64,000 nt of DNA from Muriicola soli (GTDB taxonomy: Bacteria > Bacteroidota > Bacteroidia > Flavobacteriales > Flavobacteriaceae). The stretch is taken from contig NZ_CP035544.1 of the NCBI RefSeq assembly GCF_004139715.1, positions 1,736,001 through 1,800,000 on the forward strand, written 5' to 3'. The position numbers and the translations under genes were made by a program. Positions 54,065 to 62,192 of the stretch are shown here, one piece after another. The stretch's first letter is position 1. Each line of letters starts with the position of its first letter. Below the pieces are notes generated by a model that saw only the letters and a list, made by a program, of their open reading frames with translations, was not told the origin of the DNA and did not search any database.

Positions 54065-55294
54065 ATGAATCCTTCAGGCCCAGGCTGGATAAATAAATTT
54101 GGTGAGGTTGTAAGAAATAAAGAGGGAATTTATTCTGACTTCTCAACGCTCTATACCAGCTTAAAAGACTATGGCTTTGTCTATGGAATGAATGTAAAGA
54201 GTCCATCATTCATTAGTATAGAACACGCCCCTTCGGAGGACGAAATGGCGAAGATCAACCTGCTAACCGCTCTGTACTTTACCTTTGCCCTGGAACGTCA
54301 GGAGCATAAATTCGAAGATTTTCTCGCAGCTGTATTTGCGTTTTACAAGGAACTCAAGGTGAGTCAGATTTCATTTTTAAACAAGATCCTTACAGGAAGT
54401 AAAACATCGGCTCAACTGGAGAAACTCATTGATTCCAGGGTTTACCTCGATGACAATGTGATTAGCAGAACCTTTAATAGTGTCATCACCAATTCGCTGT
54501 TGTTTATTGATATCCTCACATTCAGATATTTTCTCAGAGAAGGAAAGGATATTGTTCAGCAAGCCCAAAAGCTCGAATACCTGGCTATTAATATTACTTA
54601 TCACGCCCTGAACGCCAAGGAGAAGAACAAGGCAGATGAAAAGTTGTCACAATTATTTGCGGCCTCACTCACCTTTATCGACGAAGACAAGGAGAAATTT
54701 GACGGCTCCTACCGGGAAATCCTGGTTAACAATTGTTCTCCCTGGGAAAATCAATATTTTTTGGACGTGGCCTGTCTAACAGTATGGGAAGATTATTCTT
54801 TGGATTACAAAGAATCACAATTCATTTATGGGATTGGAAAGGACATGGGATTCACCGAAGATCAGATCGCTGGATCTTTGGAAGACATCACTACCTTTTT
54901 TAAAGATAACAGTAAAAATATTACCTTTCTGAAGGATACCAATGTCGCCGTACAATTCTATGACAGCATGTCCAGGGTGGTGAATAAACTCATCCTCAGA
55001 AATAGCAAACGTCTCCAAAAAGAACTTTCAGAAAGCAAGGAACTCGTCTTCCTGATCTCCAAAGGAGCGGTAAAAGAATTGAGTCCGGATGAGAAGAAAA
55101 AAATTCAGGACCAGCTTATGGACGTCTTTAAAAGTGTTCCTTCCCTGGCCATTTTTCTCTTGCCGGGTGGTGCCGTTCTCCTACCAATTTTCATCAAATT
55201 GATCCCGGCTTTACTCCCCTCCTCCTTCGATGAAAACCGAGTAGCAAAAAAAGGAGAAAATACTGAAAAAACGAACTATAAGAAAAATCTATAG
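54065..55294 (+). CDS. LETM1-related biofilm-associated protein
   Basis: A 409-residue protein of a flavobacterial family annotated as LETM1-related biofilm-associated. The start MNPSGPGWINKFGEVVRNKE and the C-terminal FKSVPSLAIFLLPGGAVLLP with following IKLIPALLPSSF (a LETM1-like hydrophobic segment, about 360-385) fit the family. The rest is mainly helical with the acidic loops NTFSDE-like absent; no signal peptide. LETM1 proteins in mitochondria handle ion/proton exchange, but the bacterial function is unproven. It is divergent from the DUF4331 genes (168-bp region with a small inverted repeat at 54001-54019) and convergent with the LytTR regulator. Confidence 0.75.
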   Translation: MNPSGPGWINKFGEVVRNKEGIYSDFSTLYTSLKDYGFVYGMNVKSPSFISIEHAPSEDEMAKINLLTALYFTFALERQEHKFEDFLAAVFAFYKELKVSQISFLNKILTGSKTSAQLEKLIDSRVYLDDNVISRTFNSVITNSLLFIDILTFRYFLREGKDIVQQAQKLEYLAINITYHALNAKEKNKADEKLSQLFAASLTFIDEDKEKFDGSYREILVNNCSPWENQYFLDVACLTVWEDYSLDYKESQFIYGIGKDMGFTEDQIAGSLEDITTFFKDNSKNITFLKDTNVAVQFYDSMSRVVNKLILRNSKRLQKELSESKELVFLISKGAVKELSPDEKKKIQDQLMDVFKSVPSLAIFLLPGGAVLLPIFIKLIPALLPSSFDENRVAKKGENTEKTNYKKNL

Positions 55295-55333: not shown

Positions 55334-56092
55334 TTACTCTAACCATAACTTAAAATCCTTAACACGTTCCCTACTCACGATGATTTCCTGGTCAGTAGTC
55401 TTGTTCAACTTAATTTGAAGCCTGGAATTGGTATAGGAAATTATGTCTCTGATATGGTTGATATTAATCACGTACTTCCTGCTTACCCTGAAGAATATTT
55501 TAGGAGTCAATTCTGATTCTAACTGCTCCAGGGTATTGTCTAGCAAATAAGATCTCCCTTCGGTAGTGGCTGCATAGGTACCCTTGTTTTCACTGTAGAA
55601 ACATTCCACATCATCAGCATGTATAATTTTGAGGTGCTGCCCTACCCTAACGGTAAATCTCTTTTTGTACTCCCGATCGATCGGGTTAACCAGTAATTTT
55701 TTTATGTCTTCAAAGTCGACAGCCATCTTCGGGCTGGCGACAGAATTCTGCTTCTTGAATTTGGTGACGGCTTTTTCGAGCTCATCTTCGTCAATTGGCT
55801 TAAGGAGATAATCGATACTATTTAGTTTAAAGGCCTGGAGTGCATACTCATCAAATGCCGTCGTAAAAATAATGGCGCTTTTAATCTCAAGCAGCTCAAA
55901 AATTTCAAAGGAAAGACCATCAGACAGCTGAATATCGAGAAAAATTAAGTCGGGATGTTCATTATTCTGAAACCACTGCAATGATTCTTCAACCGAATGC
56001 AAGGTAGTGCTTGCCTCCAACCCCAGGTCTGACAACATTCTGGCCAATCTTCTGGCGGAGGGTTTCTCATCTTCAATAATAATCACATTCAT
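55334..56092 (-). CDS. LytTR-family response regulator (with the 2TM locus)
   Basis: A 252-residue two-component regulator. The receiver domain has phosphorylation site Asp53 in LIFLDIQLSDG, acidic pair Glu7/Asp8, Thr in IIFTTAFDEYA and Lys in YLLKPIDEDE. A linker leads to a LytTR DNA-binding domain (RFTVRVGQHLKIIHADDVEC, then FFRVSRKYVININHIRDI). It is the downstream gene of a set with three 2TM proteins and a LytS-type kinase with a 2TM domain, which is presumably its partner. Target promoters are not known; LytTR sites are not obvious in the nearby regions. Confidence 0.92.
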   Translation of the reverse strand: MNVIIIEDEKPSARRLARMLSDLGLEASTTLHSVEESLQWFQNNEHPDLIFLDIQLSDGLSFEIFELLEIKSAIIFTTAFDEYALQAFKLNSIDYLLKPIDEDELEKAVTKFKKQNSVASPKMAVDFEDIKKLLVNPIDREYKKRFTVRVGQHLKIIHADDVECFYSENKGTYAATTEGRSYLLDNTLEQLESELTPKIFFRVSRKYVININHIRDIISYTNSRLQIKLNKTTDQEIIVSRERVKDFKLWLE

Positions 56093-56136: not shown

Positions 56137-56487
56137 TTAAATCAAGGGCTTGTTATTTTTTGTTTCTTCTTTTTCCATCATCTTCCTGATCTGTTCCGCT
56201 TCCCATTTTTTTAGTATTGGGATATGAAAAGAATATACTTGAAGTCCGTGAATTAGAAGGACTATTCCCCAAAGAAGAGGGACGCTGAAAACATTCCAGA
56301 CCAGCCATTCAACGAATGAAGGATCTATATCGGAGGTATTGAGCTCTAAAAAGTTGATCCCCTCAAGTCCTTCTATGACAATAATTGCATTTACAATCAG
56401 GTAAATGGTGAGGTGGCGGTAAAAGCCTTTGATATCTTTTACCTTCTTTTCAGCTCTTTTGTATGCCGCAAGTGATTTACTAGCCAT
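56137..56487 (-). CDS. 2TM-domain protein, diverged copy
   Basis: A 116-residue protein with two transmembrane helices (about residues 25-42 and 67-92) and a short basic C terminus. The beginning KRAEKKVKDIKGFYRHLTIY matches the other 2TM copies here, but the C-terminal motif NPxxGxxWEER seen in them is degraded to IPILKKWEAEQIRKMMEKEE. Function unknown. It lies 2 bp from the next 2TM gene, 44 bp before the LytTR gene, so it is in one operon with kinase and regulator. Confidence 0.8.
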   Translation of the reverse strand: MASKSLAAYKRAEKKVKDIKGFYRHLTIYLIVNAIIVIEGLEGINFLELNTSDIDPSFVEWLVWNVFSVPLLWGIVLLIHGLQVYSFHIPILKKWEAEQIRKMMEKEETKNNKPLI

Positions 56488-56489
56488 CT

Positions 56490-56813
56490 TTATTTGAATT
56501 TAGCTGCGTCTCGTTTATCCTTCTCGATATACTTTTGGATCTGCCTTTCTTCCCAATTCTTTCCAAGGATAGGGTTGAAATTAAAAACTTTGGCCGCGTG
56601 AAAAGCAAGACCTATGCCCCAGAAAAAAGGGGTGAAAAATGTACCAAATTGCCAGAAGGTGTCACCATCGCCCAAAGCCCGGATCAAAATATTGATCATT
56701 ATAAAGGCATTGATAACAATATAGACAGCCAGATGGATGTAAAAACCCTTGAGCTCTTCAACCTTGGCTTTTGCCTTTTTTAACTTCTCACTTTCAAACT
56801 CCTGATTTTCCAT
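56490..56813 (-). CDS. 2TM-domain protein, second copy
   Basis: A 107-residue two-helix membrane protein. Start chosen at the ATG 56813 (MENQEFESEKLKKAKAKVEE) because the longer frame (to 56840) would overlap the neighbouring gene. It carries the conserved features AKVEELKGFYIHLAVY, WGIGLAFHAAKVF, NPILGKNWEERQIQKY. The last block (about 86-99) reads NPxLGKxWEERQI, also seen in the third copy and the kinase fusion. The two helices cross the membrane with both ends in the cytoplasm, as predicted from charge. Confidence 0.82.
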   Translation of the reverse strand: MENQEFESEKLKKAKAKVEELKGFYIHLAVYIVINAFIMINILIRALGDGDTFWQFGTFFTPFFWGIGLAFHAAKVFNFNPILGKNWEERQIQKYIEKDKRDAAKFK

Positions 56814-56830
56814 TTTTACTTCTTTACTAA

Positions 56831-57133
56831 TTACTCCCATTTCTTTATCTCATCTTCTTCTCGCATCAGCTCCTTGATCTTTCTTTCCTCCCAGGCCCTG
56901 CCGAAGAAAGGATTGAGATCAAAAGTGCCAATTGCATGAAACAGAATGCCTATTCCCCATCCGAATGCGGCCCACAAGAACCACATGTATCGCCATTCAT
57001 TGGTGACGTAATTGATCAGTGCAAGGGCAGATATAACCAAAACGTATGAGGTGAGATTGGAATAGAATTTCTTTAATCGGTCTACCCGTTCCTTGGCCTT
57101 TAGGTACTTGTTTTCTTTGTTAAAATCTTCCAT
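56831..57133 (-). CDS. 2TM-domain protein, third copy
   Basis: A 100-residue two-helix membrane protein, KERVDRLKKFYSNLTSYVLV in the first part, LWAAFGWGIGILFHAIGTF in the second helix, and NPFFGRAWEERKIKELMREE at the end. It is most like the C-terminal domain of the adjacent histidine kinase, sharing GWGxGxxxHxxxxxxxNPxxGxxWEERKIKE. A 17-bp gap separates it from the second copy, 135 bp from the kinase gene; that gap is AT-rich and may hold a promoter but no exact -7 box was found. Confidence 0.83.
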   Translation of the reverse strand: MEDFNKENKYLKAKERVDRLKKFYSNLTSYVLVISALALINYVTNEWRYMWFLWAAFGWGIGILFHAIGTFDLNPFFGRAWEERKIKELMREEDEIKKWE

Positions 57134-57268
57134 GATTAGTGCTTATTGGTTTTTGAATAGCTTAAAATTCTTAATTCCAGGTTGGTTTTAAAAAACAATT
57201 TAACCCAATTGTTAATTTATATTGATGAATTGTCTTTTTCAATTAAAGCTACTGAATTTATAATGTTC

Positions 57269-58591
57269 TTACAGCTCCTCATTTTCCATGAATTCCTTGA
57301 TCTTTCGCTCTTCCCAGCGCTTTCCCCACAGCGGGTTATAGCCATAGGCTTCCATCCCGTGTGCAATTACGCCCAAGCCCCATCCAAGGGCCGGAAATAA
57401 GACCCAGGGAAAATCTGTACTGCGGTAATTAATCCAGGCTAAAAATGGAATTATAATGCAATAGGCGAGTAAATTTCCAAAAAATCCCTTGATTTCCTCT
57501 ACGCGCTCTTTGGCCTTTTGATAACGTTTGTCTTCAATAAACGCTTTTTGTGTTTCCATAGTTCCTATTTGTTTAGTGAGCATCGGTAGCTGTACACTGA
57601 ACTCCGAGGCCGTTTTTATAATATTGACTTTTTTATTTGACAGTATGGAATAGCGCTGTTGAATATTTCTCAACCCCACGCCACTGCTCCTTTTAACCAC
57701 CGGCTTCTCTTGCAAATTGTTCTCCACGACCAATTTTCCGTCTTCCTCATAAACTTTTATTCGCAATGGCTTGGAAGAGGTCACTACATTGTGTTTTACC
57801 GCATTTTCAAGTAGTAATTGCAATGAAAGCGGAACTATTTTAGCATCCGGAATACTTGAGGTTTCGGGAATCTCTAAAGAAATCCCATCTTCAAACCGCA
57901 TCGTCAATAGCTTGATATACGTTTTGGCAAAATCGAGTTCCTCATTAACGGATACCAGATCCTTGTTCTTTTGTTCCAAAACATATCGATACACCTTGGA
58001 GAGGGCTGTGGTAAACCGCTGAGCTTGCTTAGGGTCCTCTTCTATCAGGCTGGTGAGTACATTGAGGCTATTAAACAGAAAGTGTGGATCCAGCTGATTT
58101 TTCAGGGCATCAAATTTGGCTGATGCGGTCCCTGCGATAATCTTCTGCTCTTTGATCTTAGTATCCTGAAGAGCCTTCCAAAAATAAAAGGCGTGGATAA
58201 ATAAGGAAATAACCAGGGTGATGACCAGTGCGACGATATAATTGATCACATTTTCATTTTCCACAAAGGATTCGAAGGTATTGCCGTAGATGATCACCCT
58301 AACAAACCAACGTACCAGGCCAAAAGCGATCACTGTAAGTATAACTGAACCAATAGCCCCGAACCACAGCCGTTTTGTGGCCTGTGTTTCCCAGCTGTAT
58401 TTCCTGCTCGCGTAGTTGTGAAATGACGATCCAACTGCAGTAAGCACAAAAGAGTATATAAAAGAAATGCCGGTAGTTTCAAGCACATCCATAAATAAAA
58501 CGGGCTCGCCGTAATTCACCAGGAGGTTCAATAAAACAATTACCAGGGTGAGTATTAGGGATACTTTTAAAATCGTATTGAATTCTTTCAT
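57269..58591 (-). CDS. LytS/YehU-type sensor histidine kinase fused to a C-terminal 2TM domain
   Basis: A 440-residue kinase. Four hydrophobic helices lie in residues 8-140. The His_kinase domain begins at about 155 with LDPHFLFNSLNVLTSLIEED (phospho-His about 170), and the ATP-binding part has LQLLLENAVKHNV and SSGVGLRNIQQRYSIL. From about 340 a complete 2TM domain follows: KERVEEIKGFFGNLLAYCII, ALGWGLGVIAHGMEAYGYNP and GKRWEERKIKEFM. The frame is continuous, so this is a real fusion with a module that also exists as three single genes downstream. The kinase would phosphorylate the LytTR regulator at 55334. Confidence 0.9.
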   Translation of the reverse strand: MKEFNTILKVSLILTLVIVLLNLLVNYGEPVLFMDVLETTGISFIYSFVLTAVGSSFHNYASRKYSWETQATKRLWFGAIGSVILTVIAFGLVRWFVRVIIYGNTFESFVENENVINYIVALVITLVISLFIHAFYFWKALQDTKIKEQKIIAGTASAKFDALKNQLDPHFLFNSLNVLTSLIEEDPKQAQRFTTALSKVYRYVLEQKNKDLVSVNEELDFAKTYIKLLTMRFEDGISLEIPETSSIPDAKIVPLSLQLLLENAVKHNVVTSSKPLRIKVYEEDGKLVVENNLQEKPVVKRSSGVGLRNIQQRYSILSNKKVNIIKTASEFSVQLPMLTKQIGTMETQKAFIEDKRYQKAKERVEEIKGFFGNLLAYCIIIPFLAWINYRSTDFPWVLFPALGWGLGVIAHGMEAYGYNPLWGKRWEERKIKEFMENEEL

Positions 58592-58844
58592 TGGTGTTTC
58601 AATTTCTTTTCGCGAATGATCACTGTTGAAATTAAAGGTAGCAAAAAGTACAGACCATCAATTGAATCTTAGAATTTCACTGCTGGTCCACATGCAATTT
58701 TAAATTCAGTGAACAAAGATGTTAAGAGGTTTGGAGTATTAAAATAATGGTTGACCGAATTGTAAAAATTTGCTGCCCAATTGTAGTGAGGATGGTCCCA
58801 ATTACTTCTGTAAATTATCTATTTTTAACTTTAGTTTACAGCCT

Positions 58845-59493: not shown

Positions 59494-60228
59494 TTATATC
59501 GTTTGTAAATGTTTTAGGAGGCCTTCGCGATTCGACTTACTTAAAGGAATGGCCTTTCGGTTGATTTCAACATGAGCCTCTGCCACTACGTCTAATTTGG
59601 AAATATTCACCAAAAATGAACGATGCACCCTGACGAAGATCTCTTCAGGCAATTTGTTTTGCATTTCTTTTAAGGTGGTAGTGAGGACATACTCCTTTTT
59701 CGATGTCATCACATGACAGTAATTCCGATCGGCCTCTATATAGAGAATATCCTGGAGTAGCAATTTTACCATTTGACCGTGATGCCTGATAAATATCCTA
59801 TCGTTTAGCAGAGCGATATAATTCTCCTCTACAGGAACCGACTCTTCCCTTGTTTTGAACTGTTCTTCTGCCAGGGCAAGAGACCTGAGCACATTGCTCA
59901 TGGTAATCGGTTTGGCAATAAAGGCAAATGGGTGGGTATGCTTGGCTTCTTCAAAAGTGGCTTCGTCGTTGTTGGCAGTGATATAGATAACAGGAATATC
60001 TATTACCTCCTGTATCCTCTTCACGGATTCTATCCCGTTTAAGCGACCTTTGAGGTTAATATCCATCAGGATGATATCAGGTGGGTTAAGACGCGAATGG
60101 ATGACTGCTTCCTCTCCCCTGGATTCAATCCCGGTGACTTCATAGCCAGCTTTGGTTAATTGGAGGGAGATATTAGCGGCGATTATCATATCGTCCTCCA
60201 CAATTAATATACGCGTTTTTTTATTCAT
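59494..60228 (-). CDS. LytTR-family response regulator (TPR-kinase pair)
   Basis: A 244-residue two-component regulator: receiver with Glu11/Asp12, phosphorylated Asp56 in IILMDINLKG, Thr in VIYITANNDE, Lys in FIAKPI, followed by a LytTR domain (DRNYCHVMTSKKEYVLTTTL, then IFVRVHRSFLVNISKLDVV). It starts 2 bp after the kinase stop, so it is the cognate partner of the TPR kinase. The stop is only 10 bp from the convergent PaiB-like gene, with no terminator seen between them. Confidence 0.92.
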   Translation of the reverse strand: MNKKTRILIVEDDMIIAANISLQLTKAGYEVTGIESRGEEAVIHSRLNPPDIILMDINLKGRLNGIESVKRIQEVIDIPVIYITANNDEATFEEAKHTHPFAFIAKPITMSNVLRSLALAEEQFKTREESVPVEENYIALLNDRIFIRHHGQMVKLLLQDILYIEADRNYCHVMTSKKEYVLTTTLKEMQNKLPEEIFVRVHRSFLVNISKLDVVAEAHVEINRKAIPLSKSNREGLLKHLQTI

Positions 60229-60230
60229 TT

Positions 60231-62192
<1,962 letters not shown>

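Follow-up and report, generated by a model that had tools for sequence, protein, structure and literature searches.

A LytS/LytTR operon of Muriicola soli and other Flavobacteriaceae with free copies of the kinase 2TM domain and a predicted direct-repeat operator

A minus-strand gene order of a LytS-type kinase, three 2TM genes and a LytTR response regulator was analysed in a window of 64,000 nucleotides (the whole stretch of DNA considered here) from the genome of Muriicola soli. It probably encodes a self-activating LytS/LytTR two-component system with a small envelope regulon, in which free copies of the kinase 2TM domain would serve as feedback subunits. The new element is a putative operator-promoter with LytTR operator geometry, recognized by its sequence before genes of the operon across the family and before DUF2141, DUF2807 and TonB-receptor genes elsewhere. 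All five genes lie on the minus strand as placed by the initial annotation, and the 2TM domain that it described after the ATPase domain of the kinase, together with its three stand-alone 2TM proteins, was matched by Pfam; the two predicted operators, at 57163-57233 and 58714-58784, had been overlooked. The features are listed below.

58714..58784, minus strand: predicted operator and promoter of the kinase (23.1 bits; full promoter pattern with 3 mismatches)
57269..58591, minus strand: LytS-type histidine kinase, 440 aa (PF06580 and a C-terminal PF13239 2TM domain)
57163..57233, minus strand: predicted LytTR-type operator and promoter of the 2TM-regulator unit (29.4 bits, 0 mismatches; full promoter pattern with 1 mismatch)
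56831..57133, minus strand: stand-alone 2TM protein 1, 100 aa (Pfam; closest to the 2TM domain of the kinase)
56490..56840, minus strand: stand-alone 2TM protein 2, 116 aa as listed (Pfam)
56137..56487, minus strand: stand-alone 2TM protein 3, 116 aa, divergent (Pfam; NPxxG lost)
55334..56092, minus strand: LytTR response regulator, 252 aa, with receiver and LytTR DNA-binding domains (Pfam)
54065..55294, plus strand: LETM1-related biofilm-associated protein, convergent neighbour (NCBIfam NF040639, 504 bits)

Proteins of the operon

The kinase has four N-terminal transmembrane helices, a DHp domain, an ATPase domain and the C-terminal 2TM domain. Its His_kinase match (2.0e-25; 89.3 bits against a curated cut-off of 25.2) assigns it to the LytS type, PF06580, and is followed by a 2TM match (5.9e-28) at residues 358-436. 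The DHp domain carries DPHFLFNSLN with the phospho-acceptor His170, and the N box of the ATPase domain reads LLLENAVKHN; H170 and N263/N268 are invariant across 54 sequences. An AlphaFold2 model (pLDDT 80, pTM 0.43) predicts four transmembrane helices, the fourth extending into a long signalling helix, then the DHp and ATPase domains and a 2TM hairpin, and because of the pTM of 0.43 the placement of the domains, including the packing of the 2TM on the 4TM domain, is not reliable. The PDB match ranked best for this model was the kinase domain of GanS. Among the four LytS-type kinases of the genome, the 2TM fusion is confined to the one at 57269-58591. The regulator matched LytTR at 79.1 bits and the receiver domain at 55 bits and has an FLDIQ motif with the acceptor Asp, as in LytTR response regulators.

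All four 2TM domains of the locus are clear members of PF13239, a family model that names the domain only, with scores of 71.5-104.6 bits against a curated cut-off of 24.8; the stand-alone copies were matched at 2.9e-30, 2.6e-26 and 6.0e-20. An internal methionine at residue 10 of 2TM protein 2 would shorten it to 107 aa. A 2TM model (pLDDT 77) predicts a long helix, a second transmembrane helix and a C-terminal helix, and a fold search with it against the PDB gave no match below an E value of 2. The motif KxRVxxxKxFYxxL, proposed as common to the four domains, is not strict, RV being replaced by KV in two copies and FY by FF in the kinase. The last motif had been reported as lost from the copy at 56137, and its NPxxG is indeed gone, while WE and the helix after it are retained (KKWEAEQIRKMM). 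The resemblance noted between the kinase domain and the third stand-alone copy was borne out by identity, which is 43% for the copy at 56831-57133 and 35% for the other two.

The LETM1-related gene lies outside the transcription unit of the operon, with no shared operator seen, and was found convergent beside it at 76 of the 137 loci described below. A second two-component pair, consisting of a TPR-HisKA_2 kinase and a LytTR regulator, is located just upstream of the operon at 59494-62192 in the window and also adjoins the operon in the relatives L053, L129, L134, L137 and L151.

Conservation of the module and of the 2TM copies

Among 60 Flavobacteriaceae genomes (60 genera), 54 had a 2TM match and 45 of these had the kinase-2TM fusion, the remaining nine having one match each. 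Outside the cluster, the kinase-bearing genomes had one further 2TM copy in 41 cases, none in two and two in two; M. soli has exactly five 2TM matches in its whole genome, four in the operon and one beside folA. A total of 137 fused-kinase loci was assembled from the 60-genome sample, 80 further loci from named genomes and a phylum sample, a count that is slightly inflated by a few genomes occurring in both sets. The initial annotation had called for a survey of 2TM copy number beside LytTR/LytS pairs, and this gave one to six free 2TM genes, downstream and on the same strand, at all 137 loci (28, 38, 38, 19, 8 and 6 loci with one to six copies, respectively), which excludes a chance association. 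Loci that seemed to have no free 2TM gene were traced to the choice of open reading frames, as at L179 and L200, where the 2TM frame overlaps the end of the kinase gene, or to genes inserted in between (L123, L124 and L140). A LytTR regulator was within reach at 132 of the 137 loci; of the five without one in the stretch read, L174, L103 and L106 end early and L041 and L073 have no regulator nearby.

When 149 2TM domains were placed in a tree, copies 1, 2 and 3 of the window grouped with the same-position copies of other genera, with support of 95 for copy 1 (first copies), 99 for copy 2 (second copies) and 96 for copy 3 (mostly last-position copies), and copy 1 was nearest to the kinase domains. 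The copies are old paralogues with fixed positions; the alignment is short in columns, so that deep branches are not resolved. The folA-linked copies formed one separate clade (support 99). Most 2TM genes outside the order occur singly and with no adjacent kinase, so the 2TM domain itself is not specific to kinases. The prospect raised against the module, that 2TM genes are common with no kinase or regulator nearby, therefore holds in part: it applies to the folA-linked copy and to nearly all copies outside the order, and the folA type is a clade of its own. Fusion of the folA-linked 2TM domain with dihydrofolate reductase is frequent and was seen in several genera of the Flavobacteriaceae (L078, L083 and L094), whereas the domain is unfused in L091 and encoded by a separate gene next to folA in M. 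soli (C1:377520); a membrane-anchored dihydrofolate reductase is unexpected.

Genes for DUF2141 and TonB, for a TPR-like secreted protein of 206 aa and for a TonB-dependent receptor (about 717 aa) recur upstream in relatives. In the M. soli genome the TPR protein was not matched, and the TonB receptor was matched at best with 27% identity over a third of its length; the full circuit is not universal, since M. soli is without a detectable TPR protein and TonB-receptor orthologue, both of which adjoin the kinase in many relatives. DUF2306-like membrane proteins are encoded between the 2TM genes and the regulator at L060, L150, L154, L188 and L198, and at L109 and L278 they occur beside a solitary 2TM gene outside the family or behind an operator (the Pfam match at L278 is weak).

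Predicted operator-promoter and candidate regulon

The predicted operator is a direct repeat, ACARTTCATC-N11-ACARTTSGGT, with a period of exactly 21 bp, and is located before 2TM gene 1 and before the kinase gene. The former site lies in the 135-bp gap between the kinase and 2TM gene 1 and consists of ACAATTCATC-N11-ACAATTGGGT, a T tract and GAATTTTA at the -7 position, so that this promoter of M. soli has TTTA, not TTTG. The latter consists of ACAATTGGGC-N11-ACAATTCGGT, a T tract and CATCTTTG at the -7 position. In relatives, most kinase/2TM-1 gaps of at least 80 bp contain the same repeat as this gap of M. soli. The 10-nt repeats and 11-nt spacer agree with the geometry of LytTR operators, which have two direct repeats of 9-11 nt and a spacer of 11-13 nt (PMC4847170).

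An operator matrix was trained on 29 sites from 2TM gaps only, the TPR, kinase, DUF2141 and TonB-receptor sites being kept out of training. Of 25 loci outside the training set, 20 scored 13.6-24.3 bits, and none of 100 shuffles scored as high. When 124 loci (1.6 Mb) were scanned with the matrix, 199 sites reached at least 14 bits and 184 at least 18 bits, against 6 and 1, respectively, in a first-order Markov null; nearly all of the sites directly precede TPR, 2TM, kinase, DUF2141 or TonB-receptor genes. The repeat period was 21 in 184 sites, and any other period from 14 to 30 was seen in at most three. A T tract is found at +40 to +43, and 158 of the 179 unique sites have TTTG at +68. Scans for generic promoters and terminators did not rise above chance. 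Given that Bacteroidota promoters carry TAnnTTTG at -7, the repeat-TTTG unit is a predicted promoter in which the repeats lie immediately upstream of the -33 region, with the T tract and TTTG at a fixed distance downstream of them.

A search with the pattern at two or fewer mismatches gave 160 matches in the 45 kinase-bearing genomes against 15 with a reversed-pattern control, and 7 in 15 kinase-less genomes against 3; the two groups differ in genome size, for which the control allows roughly. Among the matches listed, those with zero or one mismatch were all from kinase-bearing genomes. The operator is thus above background only in genomes carrying the fused kinase. From linkage and this co-occurrence, the LytTR regulator of the operon would be the protein that binds the predicted operators. 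In LytTR regulatory systems, direct repeats just upstream of the promoter are associated with positive autoregulation (PMC6193735), and the operator position here fits the same arrangement, by analogy with which the regulator is presumed to be an activator.

Beyond the operon, M. soli has the operator before a DUF2141 gene (C1:1803720) and before a gene for a DUF2807 lipoprotein (C1:1813939), situated after PadR and PspC/Toastrack genes; both operators have TTTG at +68. In relatives the operator precedes genes for DUF2141, DUF2807, TonB receptors of about 710 aa, DUF4440-like proteins, a beta-lactamase-fold protein, DUF2306 and TPR proteins. Matches within genes (C1:1552873, 1591441 and 394170) were judged to be due to chance. 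At C1:1229586 the repeat stands at about the usual distance before an NAD(P)H-binding SDR gene, without the TTTG element, and the orthologous gene in L285 (G050) likewise has the repeats without it. Toastrack and PspC have been placed in envelope stress responses (PMC11237479), and the system is therefore tentatively read as an envelope monitor.

Proposed function and its alternatives

The locus shares with BtsS/BtsR, YpdA/YpdB and AlgZ/AlgR a PF06580 kinase with a DPHFLFN box, a receiver-LytTR regulator and an operator in which two direct repeats lie at a distance of about 21 bp. It differs from LytS/LytTR systems in that the kinase has a 2TM domain after its ATPase domain and one to six free copies beside it, and in that separate predicted operators stand before the kinase gene and before the 2TM genes. 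The kept gene order, the common operator and the candidate regulon support well the earlier proposal of a single signalling module of undescribed function: no kinase-satellite operon or regulon for PF13239, and no LytTR regulon in Flavobacteriaceae, was found described in the open-access papers searched. A Flavobacterium johnsoniae LytTR gene and adjacent histidine kinase with parallel mutations in a coevolution study (PMC10197871) were taken to be a different pair, because their consecutive locus tags leave no room for 2TM genes.

In the favoured explanation, the LytTR regulator would bind the operators and activate the genes of its own operon together with a small envelope regulon, and the system would so produce several free copies of the C-terminal 2TM domain of the kinase. 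The kinase itself is probably anchored in the membrane at both ends, by four transmembrane helices before and two after the catalytic core, and the free 2TM proteins may pair with its 2TM domain. As they would accumulate while the system is on, they are proposed to be feedback subunits, more likely damping than boosting. The initial annotation had suggested that the stand-alone proteins may modulate the kinase by forming oligomers with it, and indirect hints of such pairing come from homology, from the copies never being missing, from copy 1 being nearest to the kinase domain and from two unusual loci. At L059 (3785-5329) a kinase of the same family has two tandem 2TM domains, an arrangement resembling a satellite naturally fused to the kinase. 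At L302, in another family of the same class, a 2TM gene, an unfused LytS kinase gene and a regulator gene form one operon, a split version of the 2TM-kinase fusion; it is preceded by an operator of 29.2 bits that has TTTG at +68. It is also conceivable, at a low probability, that the doubly tethered kinase and its paralogous satellites form mixed assemblies, the composition of which sets the balance of kinase and phosphatase activity; if so, the output would rewire its own sensor via the dosage of specialised copies, and the response would be tuned in each genus by the number (1-6) and type of its copies.

The alternative that survives best, itself rather doubtful, is that the free 2TM proteins, once induced, work as membrane effectors in stress or packing, and that the kinase 2TM domain senses the condition they relieve, with no mutual binding. 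The envelope-like regulon would suit such effectors (DUF2141, DUF2807 beside PadR and PspC/Toastrack, a TonB receptor, a beta-lactamase-fold protein and DUF2306), and PspC fused to histidine kinases has been read as a sensor (PMC11237479). The PSP envelope stress system offers further likenesses, an operator-bearing DUF2807 (head GIN/Toastrack) gene standing beside PadR and PspC genes and the 2TM-kinase fusion recalling PspC-kinase fusions, whereas the core here is LytS/LytTR with 2TM and PspA is not part of the locus. Induced effectors would, however, leave unexplained why almost all genomes keep copies between the kinase and regulator genes, why copy 1 groups with the kinase domain, and the split operon L302.

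An unlikely reading is that the 2TM proteins act on the regulator and not on the kinase, by retaining the LytTR protein at the membrane as proposed for HdrM and BrsM. HdrRM and BrsRM likewise combine a LytTR gene with small membrane-protein genes and repeats directly upstream of the promoter (PMC6193735), and the regulator gene lies directly beside the last 2TM gene. The module, whose membrane proteins belong to PF13239, differs from them in its complete histidine kinase, to which one 2TM copy is fused, and its phosphorylatable receiver, the acceptor Asp of which leads control by phosphorylation to be expected; with a LytS kinase in the operon, it falls outside the LytTR regulatory systems, which pair a regulator with a membrane inhibitor and have no kinase. 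Slightly less likely still, the operator may belong to another LytTR regulator (the genome has at least one, at 59494-60228, that could share it, and the assignment to the adjacent regulator is by linkage and co-occurrence only), the cluster being merely one target and its own regulator having another job, against which stand the restriction of above-background matches to genomes with this kinase and the operator before the minimal 2TM-kinase-regulator operon of the distant L302.

With the self-activating system as the favoured explanation, a two-component system widespread in the Flavobacteriaceae can be assigned a set of genes, an operator sequence and a candidate regulon, all open to direct testing. 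A possible function is suggested for the uncharacterised 2TM, DUF2141 and DUF2807 families, and the more general idea that a sensor kinase may release free copies of its own membrane domain as feedback parts.
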